DNA of 36,626 nt from positions 1 to 36,626 of IMG/VR virus record IMGVR_UViG_3300005915_000052, one strand, 5' to 3'. Position 1 is the first letter of the stretch, and the number at the start of each line of letters is the position of its first letter. This document shows positions 542 to 33,804 of the stretch, one piece after another. The notes under the pieces are model-generated. The model had not been told where the DNA came from. It was given only the letters and a program-made list of their open reading frames with translations, and did no database searches. Both the position numbers and the translations under genes were made by a program. This DNA comes from a virus.

Positions 542-3500
542 TTATTCTCCCCATCCAGAAGGCATACCTGGAGATGTACAATCCATATCAATAACTCTTA
601 AATACCAACCGTACTCATCTGAAGGTGTACAAACGCCTTCTCCTGTAGCTCCCTTACCTGGCTCTGGAACACCTGTACGAAAATCAAATGCCTTACATAC
701 TACGCTATCATCATAATCAATATAATTAGTTTCTGGATTTGGTATACCCAAAGCTACATCAGCAGCGACACCACTACCAATACTCCACGAAATCATTTTA
801 AACGGAACTGACGTATTAGGCCCCGTAGCATAATACCTATCTTGACTAGCATCATAACAAGTAGTAGCTATCATTCCACTTGTGAAAATAGCATATATAT
901 TATTGTAGACATCAATAACATCGCCACTACTACCCACACCATGACCTATCATTCTTCCTTTTGCTGGTTGATCTTCGCCATAAGGTAATAAAGTTTGAAA
1001 TAATTTAACGTGCCTTACTACCGGAGGAGCAGACCATACTTTTCTTCTATAATCCCACCGTACATCTAATGGGCCGGTTTTCCATAAATTAGGTTTACGA
1101 AGCCAATCAGTAGCAAATTTCAATTTAGGATCATCAGGATAATCTTCTGAAAAATTAGGAACGGGTTTACTATCTACGTCAAATCCCCATCCAGAAATAA
1201 CGAGTGGTCCCTTTAAAGCCATTCCACGATACCAACCTTTTGTACTATAATTATCATGTGGATGCCGCACACTTAAATCAACAGGATATGTCGCATCTCT
1301 AGCTATATATTCAATATCATGTCCAGCCGACACACCCAATAATGCCGTCTCTACCATATCACTATCTAAAAACGGATTCAATGTTTCAGAAGTAATAGGC
1401 AATTCCCCAGATGAATACGTTGGCATCCATCCCGATCCAGACATATATTCTGGCTTAAAATATTCGCTACGTTCAAAAGCAGGAAGCGGCATACTCACAG
1501 ACGCACCACCAATATAAGTAACTGGTGGATTTCCAGAAACGCCAATATTTCTTGTAGAAAACGGTCTTACCAATCCATTCATATCCATGAATGCTCTATT
1601 ACCATAGTCAAATCTATTTACTTCTGGAAAAGTTTTTCTCAATTCGCTTATTACAACATTAGAACGATATCCATTATCCGTTTCTGGATCGATCACATTT
1701 TCTCCACCTAACATATCATGGCTTGAAGCTGTAGTATAACGAATAGCTCTATGAATATTATATTGCCAAAATCCATACACACTATCAAAAGTTGTTTTAA
1801 ATTTATTAAGAGTAAGTAAACGAAGTGCTCTTTGTGCTTTTCTTGCCCACTGCCCATTTCTCTTAATAGTACCAACATATTGATCTGTTAATTTACCATA
1901 ATCGGGCGTATAGGTTTTCATAGTATAATTTGTAAGAATAGGAGATGATCCACCTTGTATACTAACGCTAACATTAGTCACCAAAGGACCGTCGCTATAT
2001 AACTCACTCCCTAAACTAACACTTGGCGGCTCAGGTACAGATACAGCACCCTGTTCTATCACATAATTAGTGCTTAACTGCCCATAAACCCATGCGTCTG
2101 CCGCAAAATTCATATTAGATCTATTACCAAAATTCCATGGGGCAAACTCAGAGTTTCTTTGATAATTAGTTTTTCCGGCCGAATTTGGTCCTTCGTTTTC
2201 CAAACTACCAACCATTGATGCCCACGGACCATATACAAGTCTAGTACTTTGTAGTGGAATAGCTACCTTATTAGGAATTAAAAAGAGAGGAGCAATAGAA
2301 TATTTTACTTTATCTGAGCCAACTCTTTCTGCTAATTTAGCAAAATTATCTTTTTCTGAAAGAAACGCAATACCATACTTCTGTATAGCCATCGCCCAAA
2401 AACCCATAAGTATTTCTACTCCAGGTTCTGGATTAAAAGTATAAACGGGCCCTGGTAAAGAAATAATAGCTCTCCAATCTCCAGGATAAACCATCACAAT
2501 ATCTTCGACTTGACATTTGACATAAGCTATAAATGGATTAATTTGAATATAATCATCTTTATTATTTATGGCTGATAAATCAAGAGGATAAGACGACTCA
2601 AACCCAACAAAACCAATAATTTTACCATCGTCTTGCCTAAAATGCTCTAAATAAGCAGATCCATGAGCTAGTCCAAGAATAGACGTTTCACACCAACCGC
2701 CATCTCTAGCTGGAATCCAATTTGTTTCTATAGTGTAAGGAGCATCATCTGCGGCTTTCATACATAAATAAGGAAGTTTTACTAAAAATTTTCTACCAAA
2801 ATAAGTCTGTGCATATTGTGAAATAATATGATAAACTTGTTCCATTCTTTGCCATGCTAGATCCTCATCAACAGAGGCTATAGCATCAGCTTGACTAAGT
2901 GCAAGCAAATCTTTAGGAAGTATTACACCACCAACAATAGCAGCATATGCGAATGTCCCTACGTCTGGTAAAGTATTTTCACAGACCCAATGTAATGTTC
3001 TAACAAGATATGGTTGTCGTGTAATAACATAATTTCTCCATTGAGTTTCACCTTCTAAAGCAAATCTTAATTCTGTAGTAGTAATCCTATACATTCCCCA
3101 TAATCCTGGGATACCCCAACCATTCATTAACACATCAAAATAATGTTCGCCAGTAAAACCACTTGTAACTAATCCATAACCAGGAATAGTGCTATTATTT
3201 ATATCTTTTCCCCAATAAGGCCAAATATTTGCTAATAAAGGATTGGGCGTAGTGTTCCAATCTATTTGCCAAATATCTTGACGATATTCTCCAGTAAGAA
3301 AAGCATTTGTATAAGCATCTCTTAATTCAAGACCTCTACTCTTACTTTCTACTCCAGATACACCACCTAAACTCCCTCCAATAGATCCAAGATTTAAACG
3401 ACTATCAATTGGAGATCCAACGGCAGTATCAACATAAAAAGCATTATTATCATTCGATTGTTCTTTTCTATCAACCACACGCACTTTAATAGTATTATGA

Positions 3501-4273
3501 TTAATCAATTCATAAAAATAATCACAAGAAGAATATTCACACACTTCTGCAATTAATTCTCCAAGAGACATAAATTCGGAAGAAAATCGTATATCACTAC
3601 TCAAATGTGGTAATTCACTTAAATCAAAATTATAATCATGATCACGATAATTAATTTTACTACCAAATATACTACCGCTTTGATTAAGTAAATAAGTAAG
3701 AGCTGCCCTAATTTGATGCCATGGTAATCCACCCCCACTATCTGCTCCACCAAATCCAGAAGCTGGAGTATATTGTAAGAATATATTCATTCCATATGGA
3801 GGATATGTACCAAAAGTTGCCATTTCCGCACAACGTATACCCAAATTATGTTCTAACCATCCATATACATTCACTAAATTAGGAGTACTCAAAGTATTAC
3901 CAATATATCCACCTAAAATAACTTGTGTACCATTCACAATATTTTGTGGATCTATCATTTTTACCGAATAAGTTTTTGCTCCACTAGCAGAATCTCTTTC
4001 TTTCCAACTCTGAATAATACCACCAAATTGAAACGCCCCAAATCTCAGCGTTGCCGGATATCCTAATTGTGGTGGATTGAAAAAATCTACTGTAGCAATA
4101 GAAGAAGCACCATTGCCATAATCACCATAAGATAAACCCCCGCCATTGCACTCATCCTGCACAACTACAACATCAACTGATCCCATTTGACCATTCCATC
4201 CACCTGATGCATGATAAGATGAAAGAGAAGCACCTAAAAATTGCGTCCTAGTATATCCAGCAGGACAAACCAT
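542..4273 (-). CDS. Large tail hub / baseplate-like protein (1243 aa)
   Basis: Very large structural protein in the distal-tail cluster, two genes after the repeat proteins that follow the tape measure. I chose the ATG at 4273 because GGAG lies about 6 nt upstream. The frame extends 4 codons further to a TTG without better support. The N-terminal ~130 residues include FGAFQFGGIIQSWKERDSAS and KTYSVKMIDPQNIVNGTQV, the style of a tail hub or tail-tip protein N-terminal domain, followed by a long aromatic- and Gly/Pro-rich region typical of virion proteins. The length fits a hub, tail-associated lysin or receptor-binding platform. No peptidase or muramidase motif was recognised. The hub call rests on position, size and general character. 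Confidence 0.8.
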   Translation of the reverse strand: MVCPAGYTRTQFLGASLSSYHASGGWNGQMGSVDVVVVQDECNGGGLSYGDYGNGASSIATVDFFNPPQLGYPATLRFGAFQFGGIIQSWKERDSASGAKTYSVKMIDPQNIVNGTQVILGGYIGNTLSTPNLVNVYGWLEHNLGIRCAEMATFGTYPPYGMNIFLQYTPASGFGGADSGGGLPWHQIRAALTYLLNQSGSIFGSKINYRDHDYNFDLSELPHLSSDIRFSSEFMSLGELIAEVCEYSSCDYFYELINHNTIKVRVVDRKEQSNDNNAFYVDTAVGSPIDSRLNLGSIGGSLGGVSGVESKSRGLELRDAYTNAFLTGEYRQDIWQIDWNTTPNPLLANIWPYWGKDINNSTIPGYGLVTSGFTGEHYFDVLMNGWGIPGLWGMYRITTTELRFALEGETQWRNYVITRQPYLVRTLHWVCENTLPDVGTFAYAAIVGGVILPKDLLALSQADAIASVDEDLAWQRMEQVYHIISQYAQTYFGRKFLVKLPYLCMKAADDAPYTIETNWIPARDGGWCETSILGLAHGSAYLEHFRQDDGKIIGFVGFESSYPLDLSAINNKDDYIQINPFIAYVKCQVEDIVMVYPGDWRAIISLPGPVYTFNPEPGVEILMGFWAMAIQKYGIAFLSEKDNFAKLAERVGSDKVKYSIAPLFLIPNKVAIPLQSTRLVYGPWASMVGSLENEGPNSAGKTNYQRNSEFAPWNFGNRSNMNFAADAWVYGQLSTNYVIEQGAVSVPEPPSVSLGSELYSDGPLVTNVSVSIQGGSSPILTNYTMKTYTPDYGKLTDQYVGTIKRNGQWARKAQRALRLLTLNKFKTTFDSVYGFWQYNIHRAIRYTTASSHDMLGGENVIDPETDNGYRSNVVISELRKTFPEVNRFDYGNRAFMDMNGLVRPFSTRNIGVSGNPPVTYIGGASVSMPLPAFERSEYFKPEYMSGSGWMPTYSSGELPITSETLNPFLDSDMVETALLGVSAGHDIEYIARDATYPVDLSVRHPHDNYSTKGWYRGMALKGPLVISGWGFDVDSKPVPNFSEDYPDDPKLKFATDWLRKPNLWKTGPLDVRWDYRRKVWSAPPVVRHVKLFQTLLPYGEDQPAKGRMIGHGVGSSGDVIDVYNNIYAIFTSGMIATTCYDASQDRYYATGPNTSVPFKMISWSIGSGVAADVALGIPNPETNYIDYDDSVVCKAFDFRTGVPEPGKGATGEGVCTPSDEYGWYLRVIDMDCTSPGMPSGWGE

Positions 4274-4274
4274 A

Positions 4275-4421
4275 TTATTCTCCAATCATATACAAAATAA
4301 TGTTTTGAAATTGCTTTAAATTACCATTACTTTTTAATGTATTTGCTCTGTGACTGATAATCCCTATATTATCTTTGATATATCCTTGATTTGAATCTAT
4401 AACGATTTTATCATACCGCAT
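4275..4421 (-). CDS. Small hypothetical protein (48 aa) between two large tail genes
   Basis: This short frame fills most of the 180-nt gap between the 916-aa repeat protein and the tail hub. Its stop lies 1 nt before the hub ATG. The ATG at 4421 is preceded by GGAGAAGG about 10 nt upstream. An in-frame ATG at 4448 would give 57 aa, but its AAAGG abuts the start codon, so it is less likely. The product begins MRYDKIVIDSNQGYIKDNIG and is mildly basic, with no signal peptide or membrane segment. Close packing and a good ribosome binding site support it as a real gene. Function unknown. Confidence 0.55.
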   Translation of the reverse strand: MRYDKIVIDSNQGYIKDNIGIISHRANTLKSNGNLKQFQNIILYMIGE

Positions 4422-4455
4422 TTTGTACAAACCTTCTCCATAAAGCATCCTTTGT

Positions 4456-7206
4456 TTATTGACAATTCTGATAGATCCATGACTTATTTCTAGAATATAA
4501 TCCAGAAAATGGATTCCACGATTCCTGATTTTTCTCTATTAATACAATAGTAGTAGTCGGTTCAATATTATCAAGCACGTTTTCGACATTGGGTTTACCT
4601 GCGTCGAAAGAACAATTGGGAGTTGGATCAACCTGAATACTAATCGTAACCGTTCTTCTCAATGGAGTATCACCGCCTTTGTCTTGGATAACTGAATCCC
4701 CACCAAGAACCGGAACTACGGCAAATATATCATTAGCTAAGTCATCAACTATATTAATACTTTCATTAATAGCATTTACACCGGCAAAACAAGAAGATTT
4801 TTGTTTATACTCATAAACATAATTTATAATTCCTCTTCTTCTATTATGAGACACCGATTTACTTATTTCTATGTAACCATCTGGAGCAGTAGGAGTGTTG
4901 GCTTCATAACCAGTAAGAGCATTATTATATTTTCTATCTGTATTACTATCCTGGTCACAATATCCAGTTATAGTCCCAGAATAAGATTTAATAGCACCTT
5001 TCTCTGTTATACTTTCACGCTCCGCAATAGTTTCTTCCCAATCATATGGCACAGAACGCGAACTATATGTAATAGTATAACGAACTGTACCTTCTCTTTC
5101 GTTTTTTACAAGAGATTTATTCATTCTATGATTTGCACCATCTGGCACAGATATTGTATAAAAACCAGATTCTGCATTTGAAAGAGCACTACCAGAATTT
5201 CCAGTACAAAAACCTTTAACTATACCAGATTGTACATAAACTATGTTACCACAGTCACCATTACTATAATTAGTAGTAACATCTTCATAAACAGTATAAG
5301 CAGTAGTTTCTTCCAAAAACTCATAAGAAAACGAGATTGTATTATTAAACTCATTGTATTTTTTTGTCGCACTTAATACTTGAGCGTTATCAATATAACT
5401 AGAAACAAGAGAAGCGGTGACATCGGCATAATTCGTTATAAATTCGTAATCAGCACTTTCCCAAGCGGATCTAGTACTAGTTCTTTTCCCGGTAATAGTT
5501 CCTTCCATTGTGACATGTTTATAACCACAATCGTTAGATCCTTCCTTAACAGAAAAAGTAATGTTTACATCTGCTCCTCCGTCATAATCATTAAATACAT
5601 AATTATAAATAATTTGTCGAGTATGTGCATTATAAGAAATATTTGTGCTCTGGGCTTTATTATCTAAAGAACCATTCCCATTATATTTTGCATTTGCTGA
5701 AATATATGCTTCTTCTTCTGTTACAGTATCGCCAAAATATGTTTCGGCGGCACTATAACCAGCAACACAAAATGCCGTAATTGTTCCCGCAACAGTAACA
5801 GAATTATGATCTTTAATTTTATCATATTCGATAGAAATAGTTTGGTCGTTCACATATCCGGTTTCCCAATCATGATAACTATAATTATAAGAAATTTGTC
5901 CAATATATGAATTATATGTAATACTTTTTTCTGATGGCCCCTGTAAAATTCCTCCTCCACCATAATCCGAATAAGCATCTTCTGCATTAGATAAAATAGC
6001 TCCCTCAACAGTAGACCAAAGAGTAGTCGCATTTGTATATGCCGAATTTGTATCATCTTTAATACCTTGTACAGTACCACTCACAGTAATAGTTATTTTA
6101 TTACAATCTACTTCATTTGTAGAAACTGCAATCGACTGATCATTTGTACCGCCAAAAGTATTATTATCATAAATATATGTATAATTAATAGTTCTATGAG
6201 TTTCATCATAAGTTATAGAAGTATTGACTGGTAGAACAGATAATGCTACGCCAGAAATAGAACTATTGGCTGTACTATAAAGAGTCGGTTCAACAACGTC
6301 TGTGAATTCGGCTTGTGCAGCATCATACCCAGTTCCATCCGACTCCTTTAATCCAGCAATTTGGCCAGTAATAGTAACTGTGTAATCTGCCGTATTAAGT
6401 GGAACATCTCTTCGTCTTTCAACAGCTACAGTTTGGGTAGTATAAGTGGTATCTGTTGACATCATCCAGGTTTCACGAATAGTATAAACGCCGCTATACT
6501 CATCAATAGTCTGTGTCAAAACATAATTATAAGCAGAAAAAGAGTCGGCAAGATTAAAACCTGGATCATTTTTAATAATAGTATTATCAATACCGACACC
6601 ATCTAATTCATCATTCACATAATTATAAGCCTTTTGCCACCCAGCTTTAATTTCTGCTGTAGCTACAAGATACTGTTCTCTAGACGAACATGTAATGGTA
6701 TGAGTAAGATTATAAGTATCTTCTGGATCTTCGTTATATTGTAAATCCCAAATTTCATCGAATTCTTTTAATGAATCATAATCGCTATCAGTATTACCGA
6801 TTTGTGCTTCTAAAACAACGGTATAATCGCTCTTGTTTACCCACTGTGTTACATTGACTGGTTCAGTTGGGAAATCTATAGATGTTACTTTTGCTATCCA
6901 TTTAGTTGAAGTAGCGACTCCTTCAACGTCGGGTTGAATTTCAAAATATAAATAATCTTCTGCGAATAAATCTCTTAATTCTTGTTGTTTTGCTAAAAGA
7001 TCTGCAAGATAAGAGAGAGAGAAATCATCTGGCGGATAACCAGACTGATCATATAATCCACCCATGCCGTAAACAAAAGTACCATTCAAAGTAATCCTTA
7101 ACAAACTCCCAACAGAACTACCGTCTTCTGTACGAGACCAAACCTTCTCTATAGATAGATGTGGACTAGGAATTATTTTTTGATCGCCATAGGAAACCCA
7201 TGCCAT
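4456..7206 (-). CDS. Modular repeat tail protein (916 aa, about seven ~90-aa repeats)
   Basis: An N-terminal domain of about 160 residues (PSPHLSIEKVWSR, then a LLRITLNGTFVYG stretch) is followed from about residue 165 to 830 by roughly seven diverged tandem repeats of 85-100 residues. Each repeat has an opening strand of the form VTxxGTIxG, a middle helix with an Ala-rich segment, a Lys/Asn-Ile-x-Tyr-Asn strand and a closing IxYxYxF strand. The repeats look like beta-rich modules in series, as in extended tail or fibre proteins. A GGGAG lies before the ATG at 7206. Its place between a beta-helix protein and the tail hub suggests a distal-tail spacer or fibre. No enzymatic motif was seen. The structural role is inferred; the repeat is visible in the translation. 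Confidence 0.8.
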   Translation of the reverse strand: MAWVSYGDQKIIPSPHLSIEKVWSRTEDGSSVGSLLRITLNGTFVYGMGGLYDQSGYPPDDFSLSYLADLLAKQQELRDLFAEDYLYFEIQPDVEGVATSTKWIAKVTSIDFPTEPVNVTQWVNKSDYTVVLEAQIGNTDSDYDSLKEFDEIWDLQYNEDPEDTYNLTHTITCSSREQYLVATAEIKAGWQKAYNYVNDELDGVGIDNTIIKNDPGFNLADSFSAYNYVLTQTIDEYSGVYTIRETWMMSTDTTYTTQTVAVERRRDVPLNTADYTVTITGQIAGLKESDGTGYDAAQAEFTDVVEPTLYSTANSSISGVALSVLPVNTSITYDETHRTINYTYIYDNNTFGGTNDQSIAVSTNEVDCNKITITVSGTVQGIKDDTNSAYTNATTLWSTVEGAILSNAEDAYSDYGGGGILQGPSEKSITYNSYIGQISYNYSYHDWETGYVNDQTISIEYDKIKDHNSVTVAGTITAFCVAGYSAAETYFGDTVTEEEAYISANAKYNGNGSLDNKAQSTNISYNAHTRQIIYNYVFNDYDGGADVNITFSVKEGSNDCGYKHVTMEGTITGKRTSTRSAWESADYEFITNYADVTASLVSSYIDNAQVLSATKKYNEFNNTISFSYEFLEETTAYTVYEDVTTNYSNGDCGNIVYVQSGIVKGFCTGNSGSALSNAESGFYTISVPDGANHRMNKSLVKNEREGTVRYTITYSSRSVPYDWEETIAERESITEKGAIKSYSGTITGYCDQDSNTDRKYNNALTGYEANTPTAPDGYIEISKSVSHNRRRGIINYVYEYKQKSSCFAGVNAINESINIVDDLANDIFAVVPVLGGDSVIQDKGGDTPLRRTVTISIQVDPTPNCSFDAGKPNVENVLDNIEPTTTIVLIEKNQESWNPFSGLYSRNKSWIYQNCQ

Positions 7207-28824: not shown

Positions 28825-30924
28825 TTATCTCCTCACAGAACCATAAGAATAATTATTTAAACCTTTAACAAAATTGTCCGGCCCAACATACATAGCACCA
28901 CTATTACGTTTTTCTTTTTTAGATTGACCAACAAACCCGCCAGCAAACTGATAATCCAACATAGGTTTTTCATGCAACATTGTACGAGCTATCATATTAG
29001 CAATAACAAGAGCACTATATCTATCTTTTCTAAGTCTACCCTTTTTACCTCCAGGTTTAATAATCTCTGGAGTATCCCATCTATCTCTACCATTTATAGA
29101 TTGGGTATGTTCAATAGTAGATAACTCATCTTTAAGTTCCTCTATTTCTCTCATACAATCTTCAAGATTATCATATTTTCTATCTGCCATTTTATCTTGA
29201 GCAGTAGCAGTAGCAATAGCCACAGGATCAAAATAAGGGAAAAGAATAGTCTTAGTTTCAAAATCTTTTCTAAGTCCATGATTAGCTTCTACGGTAAAAT
29301 CTGGTTTTGCAAATTGTACCATATGTAAAGAATGTAATCCAGCTTCACTATCTGTTGGCTTTTTTGCTTGTTCCCACCAAAACGGATCTTCTTGTTGTCT
29401 CACAATATATGGCCAAATTGGATATTCTCCGCTCTCTATTTCATTAGAATCATGTAAAGTCTCCCCAATAACAATTCCACCACCTTGACTATCAATCCCA
29501 ATATGTTCTGTAGGAAAAGTTTTCATAAGATTACGTATTTTTCTAGCACAATAAGCGTAAAAAGATCTATCAGTTCTTACCTCTTTATTTTTTCTTAACT
29601 GTTGACGATTAGCCGTCCAACAATATACAATTCTACAATGATCTTCACAAGCCTCTAAAATAACAATAGCAAAATTATCTCTCTCAGACGCTGGATCAAT
29701 ACCATAAACATATGTTTTTTCTATATCACCATGTATTCTCGCAGAAAAATGAACAGGTCCAGAAGGTAATTGTATTGGTTTATTAGTTACACAACTCTCA
29801 ATAGTGCTTCTTTTAAAAAACCCATCACTATCAGCCAACCACACACAAGCATATTCCATCCTATAAAAAGAAATATGAATTGTGGCTTTTGCTTGAGCAA
29901 TTTGAGTTTCGTCAAGAAATCCCTTTGGTAATATGGTCCATGGAATTCTAAAAACAGAATATTGTGTCCAATCAAATCCGTCTGGAACGTCCCCATGAAA
30001 TAATTCTTGAAGACGACCAATATCACCCTGAGACTGAATAATTTCCTTATATCTTTTCCAGTAATCGTAAAAATGATTAAAGGCATAATCAGCAGTACCA
30101 CTAATAATAATTTGGTTCCCAAAACCTATATTCTCTAATTCTTCATTTGCCTCAGTTAACATACCTAAAGATTGTAAAACTTCAATTCTATGCATATCTT
30201 TGACACGTTCGACAGGATTAGCACTCGTAGCAGCAAAACCCTTAATAACGACTTCAAAAATTTCTCTAGGAATTTTAGCAAACTCATCAGCAAGAATAAC
30301 ATTTGCACGTAAACCACGAATCTTATCACCCATACCAATAGGAATCGCTAAAACTTCACTATCTCCAATATAAAAATTACAACTATCTGGGTTTCTTTTT
30401 GGTCCTTGACGAATACTTCTTCCCGTCAAATTTTGTAAAATAGGAGAACTTTTCCATATTTGCTCCATATAATCAAAAACAATTTTCGATTGACGAAATC
30501 CACTACCAGTAATAATAATTTTACTTCCTTGATCAAACACGGCCTTTAAAATGGCATATAATCCAAGAGACCAACTTTTACTTGCTCCACGCGACATAAT
30601 AAGCATAGGAAATTTTCTTCTCCATAATTCATTTTGAATACATAACTGAAATGGATGTAAATCTAAATTGAACAATAATTTACATGTAAGAGCAAAGTTT
30701 TCTGGCCTTTTTAACATCATAAGTAATTCTTTAACAAAATCTTCTGGCTCAGTAAAAAGATCTTGTGGTCTAGCATCAAGAAGCATATTCTTAGCATCGT
30801 CAATATCAAAATTATCAGGAAGATTCATCATTTTGTTTTCGACCATCATACTTACTTGAGTATCAGGCACAAATAGATCAATCTTTTGTTGTGAATTTTG
30901 TAAATCTACCTTATTTCTTCTCAT
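28825..30924 (-). CDS. terL: Terminase large subunit (699 aa)
   Basis: DNA packaging ATPase and headful or cohesive-end nuclease. Walker A is visible as SRGASKSW (residues ~111-118) and Walker B as VILADEF (~209-215). The C-terminal nuclease domain shows YGIDPASERDNFA (Asp ~410) and IGIDSQGGG (Asp ~478), the acidic residues expected in an RNase H-like fold. The ATG at 30924 lies inside the end of the upstream nuclease gene (14-nt overlap), so it is probably translationally coupled; a TTG 9 nt upstream is less likely. The gene directly precedes the portal, with which the protein docks. The length is on the long side for TerL. Confidence 0.95.
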   Translation of the reverse strand: MRRNKVDLQNSQQKIDLFVPDTQVSMMVENKMMNLPDNFDIDDAKNMLLDARPQDLFTEPEDFVKELLMMLKRPENFALTCKLLFNLDLHPFQLCIQNELWRRKFPMLIMSRGASKSWSLGLYAILKAVFDQGSKIIITGSGFRQSKIVFDYMEQIWKSSPILQNLTGRSIRQGPKRNPDSCNFYIGDSEVLAIPIGMGDKIRGLRANVILADEFAKIPREIFEVVIKGFAATSANPVERVKDMHRIEVLQSLGMLTEANEELENIGFGNQIIISGTADYAFNHFYDYWKRYKEIIQSQGDIGRLQELFHGDVPDGFDWTQYSVFRIPWTILPKGFLDETQIAQAKATIHISFYRMEYACVWLADSDGFFKRSTIESCVTNKPIQLPSGPVHFSARIHGDIEKTYVYGIDPASERDNFAIVILEACEDHCRIVYCWTANRQQLRKNKEVRTDRSFYAYCARKIRNLMKTFPTEHIGIDSQGGGIVIGETLHDSNEIESGEYPIWPYIVRQQEDPFWWEQAKKPTDSEAGLHSLHMVQFAKPDFTVEANHGLRKDFETKTILFPYFDPVAIATATAQDKMADRKYDNLEDCMREIEELKDELSTIEHTQSINGRDRWDTPEIIKPGGKKGRLRKDRYSALVIANMIARTMLHEKPMLDYQFAGGFVGQSKKEKRNSGAMYVGPDNFVKGLNNYSYGSVRR

Positions 30925-31381
30925 ACTGTACAATTCTTTTAAATAGAGAGCGTGTTATTTCTTTACCGTATTTCCCACAAAACATAATTTTTATATTAGG
31001 ATATTGAATCATAATTTCAGATATTCTACGCACAATATATTTTCCGTTAATTTTTACATACTTTAACTTATACCGAGGAATACGAGCACTGACAGGATAA
31101 TGCACTAGAGTACTAGCATCAAATTCAAGAAGAATAAAGGAATGTTTAATATGGGCCATTCTCTCTATTTCCCGATCAAATCTTTTTTCTATAACATTGT
31201 GAGCAAATTCACTAATGCTACCTTTTCTTTCTATTGTAAAAATATCTTCATATCCCTCAAGAGAATAATCTCCAGTTTTTATTTTTCGAGTTATAGTTCC
31301 TTTACAATAACTGGTTTTATTAAATCTCCAACCATGCCCCATTTTTTCTTGACTATCTCTTATAACAAGAAATTTATCCAT
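30911..31381 (-). CDS. ERCC4-type (XPF-like) nuclease (156 aa)
   Basis: Contains the ERCC4 nuclease layout: VIRDSQEK (Asp9, Glu12), KTGDYSLEGYEDIF (Asp38), then TIERKGSISEF (Glu51-Arg52-Lys53) and an RFDREIERM helix. The family core is GDx(n)ERKx3D; here the final Asp position is Ser57, followed by Glu58. The family cleaves branched or flap DNA in repair and recombination. Alone, without an HhH domain, it is a minimal nuclease domain as found in some phages. GGGGA lies 6 nt before the ATG at 31381, which overlaps the dehydratase stop by 8 nt; its stop overlaps terL by 14 nt. Possible roles are trimming branched concatemers before packaging or repair; this is inference from context. Confidence 0.85.
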   Translation of the reverse strand: MDKFLVIRDSQEKMGHGWRFNKTSYCKGTITRKIKTGDYSLEGYEDIFTIERKGSISEFAHNVIEKRFDREIERMAHIKHSFILLEFDASTLVHYPVSARIPRYKLKYVKINGKYIVRRISEIMIQYPNIKIMFCGKYGKEITRSLFKRIVQYEKK

Positions 31382-33608
31382 AATTAATCCCCAAATCTAT
31401 TTTTTGCCCTAATTTATATCGGATTTCATTCTCCACCATACTTTTCACAAGATCTTTAAATGTAAAAAGGGGAGACCATTTTAATTTATTTTTTACTTTA
31501 GAATAATCACCGCATAAATAGTTTACTTCACATGGCCTATAAAATCTTGGATCTATCCGCACAAATTTCATAATATAGTCTTTGTCTTTAGATAGACCAA
31601 TCACAGAAAAAGATTCTTGTAAAAATTCCATTACAGAATGTGTTTCCCCAGTAGCCAAAACAAAATCGTCTAATTTATCATTTTCAAGTATTAAAATCAT
31701 ACCTTTACAAAAATCTACAGCATGTCCCCAATCTCTACAAGCATTTAAATTACCCAATGGAAGTTTATCTGAATTATGTAACCCATAAGGAATATATTCA
31801 CAATGCTTACTCCATTCATTAATTTTACGAGCTTTCTTTTTTCTATTTAGTTTGAGTTTTCCATTTGTCCATTTGATATATAAGTCTGCAATAAATTTCG
31901 CTATTTTACGAGTAACAAAATGTTCGCCTCGCAATAAGGGCGAATTATGTATTCTCATCAAATTAGGCCCAATAGCAAAAAAATTACTTTCTGTTTGCAG
32001 ATCGTAAAACCATCCGTCTTCACTTTCAGTATCAAAAATTTTAATAACTTCCGATAAATTCTCTTGAGCACAAACTTTATTATTATTTGCACTTCTTAAT
32101 TGAATATAATAACACCGATGATCTTTATCTTTATATTCACATTTCACTTTTGGGATTTGATGTAAAACATTATTAATAATAGTTAATAACCCCAAACATA
32201 ATGTGGCTGATTTTGTCGTAAATCCTTTATAATAATATCTTTCGTTTCCTTTTATTCTTCCGTCTGCCATATAATAACCATCTAAAAATGCCTTTTGAAT
32301 ATCATGATCGGCATTAAGTATAAACGACGGAACCCTTTTTTCTTTAGATCTTTTAGTATAAATATTACTTTTTATCCATTGTCCAAAACTAGAATGATTA
32401 TGAAGATTAAGCTTCCATACATCTTTAGTACAATTCTTAAAATCACCAACTCCAGTATTAATTAATGAATAACCATAACCGTAAATAGAAATTATTGATT
32501 CTACCTCTTTTAATAATAAATTTTTATCACAACCAGTCAATGTAATTTTCCCATTTTCATCAATATTACCATCTCTACAAACAAAACCCATAAAATGCGA
32601 CAATATTTTATCACAATAGTCGCTTTTTTGACATAATAAAGGATATTGACTATCAAATACCTCATCACCAACTTTAACATTTTGGCATTTAGTTTCTATA
32701 TCATCTTTCATACAAACTATATGATTATGTGTTGTTTCGCATACACAAGATCTTGTTTGTATTAGTCTCATTTTTTTAGACATATCTCTATAGCAAGTAC
32801 CAGCAAGAATATTTGTCCACTGTACACCATCCCAAATCTGCATATCTTGTTTATACTTTGGTAATATTGTTTTATAAGTATATCTACCGTCACCACTATA
32901 GAACATATCTTCTATTGGTAATATATCTATAAAATTATTTTTTATATTTTTGATTAATACAGGAAAATGTTTAGGAATTGACTCATGGTTAAAACTTATA
33001 CTTGAACAACATGGAATATTATAAGCTTCACGATAAGATTTTATCAAATGATAGGAAGCTAATTTTGATATAGCATACGGAGAATTTGGTGCGAATGGAG
33101 TATTCTCATCTTGAAATTTTATTAATTTCCCCCCATTCTTTTTTTGAGAAGAAAAGTTATTACCATACATCTCACTACTTGAAGCTTGTAACAATTTAGC
33201 TGTAAGACGCATATCTTTATGAATTTCTAAAAGATTCAGAACACCACTAGCATTAACGTTCCAAGTAAGAGAAGGTTGAGAAAAACTTACTTTTACGTGA
33301 GATTGTGCAGACATATTATATATATAATCTATTTTACCGCATTTCTTTAAAATACCACCAAATACATTGCGTATAGAAGATGTATCCGTTACATCGCCAA
33401 CCATTAATTGAAAATTAGGTTCTATATCATTATAATCTTCACACGGTAAATATAAATTAAGAAGACGCAATCTTTGAGTATTATCAGTACTACTTCGTCG
33501 TGTTACACCAATAACTATATCATTTCTGTCAATTAAGAGACGAGAAAGTATTGATCCGTCTTGTCCGGTACAACCAAATACAACGCTGACATTTCTTCCT
33601 TTAGTCAT
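31374..33608 (-). CDS. gmd: GDP-mannose 4,6-dehydratase interrupted by an intein (744 aa)
   Basis: Extended short-chain dehydrogenase that converts GDP-D-mannose to GDP-4-keto-6-deoxy-D-mannose, precursor of fucose, rhamnose or perosamine. The N-extein (1-209) has the NAD(P) motif GCTGQDG (Gly12/15/18), SVGVTRRSS-like GVTRRSSTDNTQRL, QASSSEMYG (Ser144 in place of the usual Thr, Glu146) and PYAISK (Tyr178, Lys182). The C-extein resumes at Ser556 with SPLLRGEHFVTRKI, then RDWGHA and RFYRPCEV. Removing the 346-residue intein joins FNHE to SPLLRGE, the uninterrupted family sequence, and leaves about 398 aa. That is longer than usual partly because of an insertion before GNLNACRDWG. AGGAAG lies 7 nt before the ATG at 33608; an upstream TTG is rejected. 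Confidence 0.95.
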   Translation of the reverse strand: MTKGRNVSVVFGCTGQDGSILSRLLIDRNDIVIGVTRRSSTDNTQRLRLLNLYLPCEDYNDIEPNFQLMVGDVTDTSSIRNVFGGILKKCGKIDYIYNMSAQSHVKVSFSQPSLTWNVNASGVLNLLEIHKDMRLTAKLLQASSSEMYGNNFSSQKKNGGKLIKFQDENTPFAPNSPYAISKLASYHLIKSYREAYNIPCCSSISFNHESIPKHFPVLIKNIKNNFIDILPIEDMFYSGDGRYTYKTILPKYKQDMQIWDGVQWTNILAGTCYRDMSKKMRLIQTRSCVCETTHNHIVCMKDDIETKCQNVKVGDEVFDSQYPLLCQKSDYCDKILSHFMGFVCRDGNIDENGKITLTGCDKNLLLKEVESIISIYGYGYSLINTGVGDFKNCTKDVWKLNLHNHSSFGQWIKSNIYTKRSKEKRVPSFILNADHDIQKAFLDGYYMADGRIKGNERYYYKGFTTKSATLCLGLLTIINNVLHQIPKVKCEYKDKDHRCYYIQLRSANNNKVCAQENLSEVIKIFDTESEDGWFYDLQTESNFFAIGPNLMRIHNSPLLRGEHFVTRKIAKFIADLYIKWTNGKLKLNRKKKARKINEWSKHCEYIPYGLHNSDKLPLGNLNACRDWGHAVDFCKGMILILENDKLDDFVLATGETHSVMEFLQESFSVIGLSKDKDYIMKFVRIDPRFYRPCEVNYLCGDYSKVKNKLKWSPLFTFKDLVKSMVENEIRYKLGQKIDLGINYG
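31944..32981 (-). other. Intein with LAGLIDADG-type endonuclease region (346 residues)
   Basis: In-frame insertion inside gmd, residues Ser210 to Asn555 of the precursor. The N-splice side is SIPKHFPVLIKN (Ser1 instead of Cys1) followed by a DILPIEDMF segment. Block B is visible as TTHNH (T293, H296). Two LAGLIDADG-like motifs, LSHFMGFVCRDGN (Asp346) and FLDGYYMADGR (Asp449), indicate a homing endonuclease domain. Block F is WFYDLQTESNFFAIG, and block G ends with MRIHN, then Ser as +1 (His554, Asn555, Ser556). All splicing residues for a Ser1/Ser+1 reaction appear present, so splicing is predicted. The insertion is beside the conserved NHESPLRGE sequence, a typical conserved-site target. Confidence 0.93.
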
Positions 33609-33804
33609 CGCCAATCTTCCTATTTTTCTTTATTTTTGTAGAATTTTTAAACAATACATTTTTATAATTTTTGGTTTGCGGACTTGGATTCCATTGAGTA
33701 CCAATGCCACCAATACTCATATATACACCATCTTTACTAACAACCCCGCCCTTTACGCTATTTTTTTGTTTCTTGTTCTTCTTCATTTCTTGGCAATTTC
33801 TCAT
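33601..33804 (-). CDS. Small basic hypothetical protein (up to 67 aa)
   Basis: Overlaps the upstream 296-aa gene by 47 nt and the dehydratase start by 8 nt, with GATGACTAA joining stop and start. The product is Lys-rich and contains GVYMSIGGIGTQWNPSPQTK in its middle. Two ATGs are possible: 33804 (with GGGGA upstream) and 33786 (weaker site). The portion from about 33757 to 33615 is not covered by another gene, and the overlapping layout matches the rest of the operon, which supports a real gene. Function unknown; perhaps nucleic acid binding because of its charge. Confidence 0.55.
   Translation of the reverse strand: MRNCQEMKKNKKQKNSVKGGVVSKDGVYMSIGGIGTQWNPSPQTKNYKNVLFKNSTKIKKNRKIGDD

Follow-up and report, generated by a model that had tools for sequence, protein, structure and literature searches.

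An intein in a viral GDP-mannose 4,6-dehydratase at an insertion site that recurs among viral contigs

An in-frame insert interrupts the GMD gene of the window

What is the insert that splits a GDP-mannose 4,6-dehydratase (GMD) gene in a viral contig, and is it an isolated occurrence? The DNA analysed here (the window) is the whole 36.6 kb stretch (36,626 nucleotides) of IMG/VR virus record IMGVR_UViG_3300005915_000052, and it is a fragment of a tailed phage genome, as shown by its terminase, its ERCC4-type nuclease and a match to a major head protein. On the minus strand, to which all window coordinates given here refer, an open frame at 31374-33614 encodes the GMD together with the insert, and no stop codon occurs across the latter. 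Two starts are available in this frame, an ATG at 33608 with a Shine-Dalgarno-like AGGAAG upstream and a TTG at 33614, of which the ATG seems the likelier start of the precursor. Read from there (31374..33608), the precursor has 744 aa (85.6 kDa) and matches GDP_Man_Dehyd at 1.9e-89. The gene adjoins that of the ERCC4-type nuclease (30911..31381; phrog_3490, 1.3e-12), which is syntenic in related phages, and the latter is followed by the large terminase subunit (28825..30933; phrog_9, 5.4e-11), which bears no intein and serves as a marker of the phage lineage. Several related phages share this arrangement of a single GMD gene, the ERCC4 nuclease and the terminase (28825-33614); we noticed no further sugar genes in the window.

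The insert itself (31944..32981) is a stop-free stretch of 346 codons, corresponding to a 40.2 kDa polypeptide that begins with SIPKHFPVLIKN and ends with RIHN. A sequence-only reading had described it as a complete intein with Ser1, a TTHNH block, two LAGLIDADG motifs and a terminal His-Asn followed by Ser, and all of these are found in the 346-residue translation. The domain limits were taken from a structure model (see below), using its strands. The N-terminal half of the Hint splicing domain would span residues 1-124 (32610..32981), with block A (SIPKHFPVLI) and block B, where residues 84-87 of TTHNH provide the TxxH motif (T84 and H87). The predicted LAGLIDADG homing endonuclease domain follows at residues 125-305 (32067..32609) with motifs FMGFVCRDG (130-138) and FLDGYYMADG (232-241), each contributing one catalytic acid (D137 and D240), as in two-motif enzymes. 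The C-terminal half of the Hint domain would cover residues 306-346 (31944..32066) and carries the block F aspartate D327 and the terminal H345-N346. Thus, the nucleophiles and terminal residue of a class 1 intein (Ser1, N346 and Ser+1) are present together with its block residues (TxxH, block F Asp and the penultimate His).

The flanking segments were delimited by alignment to GMDs. The N-extein (32982..33608) comprises 209 aa, contains the motifs GCTGQDGS, RRSS, catalytic SSE and YAISK, and ends with FNHE; the C-extein (31377..31943) comprises 189 aa and starts at Ser+1. Removal of the intein gives FNHE/SPLLRGEHFVTRKI (the slash in junction sequences marks the insertion point) within a 398-aa protein of 45.5 kDa. 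Alignments of the joined extein with solved GMDs (best E 1.7e-68) and with GMDs of related phages run through the junction, and the protein contains all the family motifs, namely TGQDGS, RR(S), S/T-x-E, YxxxK and the conserved Arg after NHES; the roles of the cofactor and catalytic motifs have been described (PMC3584063). With the NCBIfam model TIGR01472 it scores 301.7 bits, which is below the curated 415, but this is nonetheless by far its best family. The expectation that deletion of the insert would restore the GMD family sequence therefore holds for the alignment to uninterrupted GMDs, but not to the letter, as the junction NHE/SPLLRGE is one residue longer than in uninterrupted relatives, with an extra Leu. 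In the window (31929-31943), Leu-Leu replaces the first Arg of the otherwise conserved SPRRG after the splice junction. Both the additional Leu and the missing Arg might influence the enzyme after splicing.

Counting from the YxxxK motif, the conserved Arg downstream of the junction (codon 31929-31931) corresponds to Arg190 of BceN, which orients the substrate and NADP+ (PMC3584063). Because of this correspondence, the intein appears to be placed immediately ahead of an active-site residue. An assignment of NHESPRRG to the GMD "RR loop" was dropped, as the same study locates the loop around residue 37, at GxxRR.

Related phages carry the same gene with the site empty

Using the terminase as a query, we retrieved nine related contigs. 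In four of them (L005, L006, L009 and L010), the corresponding locus next to the nuclease and the terminase contains a GMD without an insert, and the sequence at the empty site reads NHESPRRGE or NHESEYRGE.

The terminases of some of these relatives carry inteins. In L009 (2407-7518, plus strand) the large subunit is encoded by one 1703-aa frame with three inteins, whose junctions are LGK/C..HN/S, GDG/C..HN/S and EFA/C..HN/S. Two inteins are present in the terminase of L011 (1463-5881, plus strand), and likewise in that of L012.

The same site is occupied in other viral GMD genes

We searched for further occupied sites with the pattern N[S/T/C]xxRGxxFVTRK, verified on the window and on the empty-site loci. 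The pattern targets Asn before Ser+1, because any intein at this position replaces Glu by Asn there. It recovered 29 other IMG/VR contigs, and all 29 contain a GMD with an intein at the identical position, NHE/S; both junctions are present in 24 of them. The counterpart pattern for the uninterrupted site gave at least 120 matches. The sequence-only reading had regarded GMD as an unusual intein host, and the window is evidently not a lone case. After three near-duplicates were set aside and the window was added, the 24 two-junction contigs gave 22 distinct inteins of 333-438 aa. Position 1 is Cys in 12 of these, Thr in six and Ser in four, while the +1 residue is Ser throughout; the description of Ser1/Ser+1 as a less common chemistry is thus borne out at this site.

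These results bear on the trivial explanation that the insert is an assembly chimera or a misread insertion. The contig is indeed metagenomic, yet its junctions are exactly in frame with splice residues at both ends, and two dozen other contigs have both junctions at the same site, so that the chance of an artefact is negligible.

A nuclease and a terminase in common with the window were found in seven intein-bearing contigs (L028, L040, L041, L043, L047, L054 and L055). L029 and others have no match to either protein of the window, and from their open reading frames they look like different tailed phages.

Two of the contigs (L036 and L042, both on the minus strand) carry a second GMD intein at FYQA/STSE, beside the catalytic Ser/Thr and Glu. 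This element has 391 aa, Cys1 and a Gly-Asn end, and is related (33%) to part of an EBPR siphovirus 2 methylase. The NHE/S inteins of L035, L036, L041, L043, L045, L049, L050 and L051 (382-438 aa) have an extra segment before block F; it resembles a helix-turn-helix, with Pfam HTH matches in two of the 22 members.

Searches elsewhere define the range over which the family was seen. Among 50,697 phage records no GMD intein was detected, and no record covered at least 80% of the precursor in one place. The only match of the window intein in these records was the DNA polymerase B intein of LR756508.1 (23%, E 3e-4), and Cys1 and Thr1 family members had none. The intein pattern was also absent from the 775 bacterial genomes of two sampled phyla (0/380 and 0/395); the uninterrupted-site pattern was present in 35 of 61 genomes of the second phylum. 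Short peptide patterns recovered no relatives of the intein or of the joined extein from viral contigs, the family having diverged too far to be caught by exact 8-mers.

Family profile and structure model identify the insert as an intein

Taken as a single sequence, the insert stays below the Pfam cut-offs for Intein_splicing (PF14890; 21.9 bits vs 35.8) and LAGLIDADG_3 (21.5 vs 22.5), and it matches the solved intein PI-PkoII with an E-value of 5e-7. Since PF14890 matches just four of the 22 family members, this model covers the GMD inteins poorly; LAGLIDADG_3 matches 20. A profile built from the 22 inteins matched solved inteins at E-values from 1.4e-21 to 1.5e-7, including TliVMA (1.4e-21), PI-PkoII (1.4e-13) and the Mvu TFIIB intein (5e-11). 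T84, H87, D327 and N346 are invariant among these 22 diverged sequences and H345 is kept in 17, while of the endonuclease acids D240 is present in all 22 and D/E137 in 21.

The AlphaFold2 model obtained with the 22-sequence alignment reached a pLDDT of 88.9 and a pTM of 0.89, compared with a pLDDT of 33 when the intein was folded without an alignment. Full-length inteins are the closest entries to it in the PDB (Foldseek, 4.6e-19), and superposition (VIA) gave Z 27.7 over 309 residues with 2cw7 and Z 25.4 over 310 residues with 7qsu. A Hint fold is predicted as well, as many mini-inteins match the model at 1.9-3 A over about 125-150 residues. The identification of the insert as a complete intein within a phage GMD is thus supported by three lines of evidence (the family profile, the predicted structure and the relatives with an empty site), and both checks proposed with the sequence-only reading, namely a match to known inteins and an alignable extein junction, came out in its favour.

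Intein and GMD phylogenies disagree

The intein tree places the window in one clade with L028, L029 and L035 (support 100). In that of the exteins, the window instead clusters with L041 and the GMDs that have an empty site (93), and L028 is found among GMDs bearing Cys1 inteins (100). Approximately unbiased (AU) tests gave the same picture: the exteins reject the intein clade of the window, L028, L029 and L035 (p-AU 1e-93), and, conversely, the extein clade that contains L028 is not compatible with the inteins (p-AU 7e-4), the clades being named after the trees had been seen and the margins being wide. Such strong disagreement between the two trees suggests that the intein moved between GMD lineages, and it supports lateral movement of the kind that homing predicts.

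We thus consider it highly probable (about 0.93) that the window GMD harbours a full-length class 1 intein which splices, homes and belongs to a viral GMD-site family moving between lineages. The anatomy, the predicted fold, the empty sites, the shared site and the tree conflict were observed here, and from them we infer splicing, DNA cutting and activity of the joined GMD. The precursor would be translated as a single protein, in which Ser1 would attack the Glu-Ser bond (N-O acyl shift), Ser+1 would receive the N-extein, and Asn346 would cyclise with the assistance of His345. The exteins would then join as ...FNHE-SPLLRGE..., yielding a GMD of about 45.5 kDa and a free intein of about 40 kDa. 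The latter is predicted to act as a LAGLIDADG homing endonuclease that cuts GMD genes lacking the intein at their conserved NHES site, and repair of the cut gene would copy the element in.

A different role could be imagined if the intein had become fixed as a regulatory switch of GMD, with conditional splicing, and were thus more than a selfish element. An insertion a few residues before the conserved substrate- and cofactor-binding Arg (PMC3584063) would keep the precursor inactive, and several phage groups have an intein at this site. However, the GMD of related phages at this place is free of an intein, the trees show transfer, and an active-site insertion is expected anyway from homing into conserved DNA; since nothing speaks positively for a switch, we regard it as unlikely.

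Splicing chemistry and the NX histidine

The Ser1/Ser+1 pair of the window raises a further question. In 56 of 58 inteins with Ser1 and Ser+1 (or Thr+1), a His of the NX motif, preceded by Arg or Lys, is conserved, and it was needed for splicing where tested (PMC10189870). We assigned the NX position by spacing to the block B His and not by structure. In the Mvu TFIIB intein, Arg-His is found at -22 from the block B His, and at that spacing the window has Tyr64-Arg65; there is no His 16-34 residues ahead of its block B His. L029 and L035 likewise lack it, and L028 has a His at -25 only. In place of the Tyr-Arg of the window, L028 and L029 have Tyr-Gln or Tyr-Lys. A Pro-His pair is conserved at -22 to -25 in each of the six Thr1 inteins.

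The Ser1/Ser+1 pair without an NX histidine, as well as the altered residues after the junction, would fit a degenerate intein which had lost splicing and homing and left the GMD dead. Against this, the 346 codons are open, all the invariant splicing residues and both endonuclease acids are kept, the catalytic GMD residues are retained in both exteins, and L028 and L029 of the same Ser1 clade preserve the same anatomy. Degeneration is therefore very unlikely, and we prefer the active, mobile intein. More tentatively, with the odds somewhat against it, GMD may be a major overlooked intein host of uncultivated phages in which the nucleophile at one site was switched between Cys, Thr and Ser, with the Ser1 branch, including the intein of the window, activating Ser1 without an NX histidine. 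If this is true, GMD-site inteins would form a natural series for the origin of oxyester from thioester splicing.

Relation to known inteins and significance

The element resembles the archaeal VMA inteins TliVMA and PhoVMA (7qss, 7qsu, 7qst) and PI-PkoII (2cw7) in its full-length Hint and LAGLIDADG architecture, and its model superposes with them over about 300-310 residues. It differs from them in sequence, with 16-18% identity over the structure-aligned residues, and in host gene, which is V-ATPase or DNA polymerase in those cases and GMD in the window.

The top viral structural match is the GMD of Pithovirus LCPAC304 (UniProt A0A481Z7I5, 791 aa; TMq 0.88, E 3.5e-30), whose host is a giant virus and not a tailed phage. 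On the basis of this structural match, the protein in UniProt/BFVD very probably contains an intein, so an intein-bearing GMD has very probably been deposited already. The genome paper does not mention inteins (PMC6401483). The nearest viral models after it are inteins of DNA polymerase B from a phycodnavirus, a pandoravirus and phage LR756508.1 (TMq 0.74-0.79). The LR756508.1 intein has Ser1 like that of the window, but a different host gene and site (YTD/TDS). This jumbo phage (L002) has the DNA polymerase B intein and another in a clamp-loader-like gene (2920-4785 and 6176-6934, plus strand).

The closest counterparts are L028 and L029, which share the NHE/S site, Ser1/Ser+1 and 49% intein identity with the window; their exteins are 46-47% identical to it and lie on other branches of the GMD tree. 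The gene order of L028 (GMD-nuclease-terminase) is like that of the window. Ser1/Ser+1 junctions like those of the window also occur in PolB16 OarG and other inteins, which have the conserved NX histidine (PMC10189870) where the window has Tyr-Arg.

No paper linking inteins with GMD was found in the literature covered, outside which lie most subscription journals and bioRxiv; two candidates (PMC9403480 and PMC12584671) were unrelated. Inteins in sugar-nucleotide enzymes are not without precedent, because one is known in the UDP-glucose dehydrogenase of the archaeon M. jannaschii. The kind of element is thus ordinary, and the recurrent GMD site is apparently undescribed.

For practical purposes, annotation may miss or split intein-bearing GMD genes, and mesophilic Ser1 and Thr1 inteins are useful in thiol-free protein ligation. 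The sister inteins of this site, with Cys1, Thr1 or Ser1, allow a comparison that single known inteins cannot offer. The finding extends the intein hosts of tailed phages to an enzyme of carbohydrate metabolism with a family at a recurrent site, and it supports the view that inteins track conserved DNA coding for active sites and not replication genes as such.
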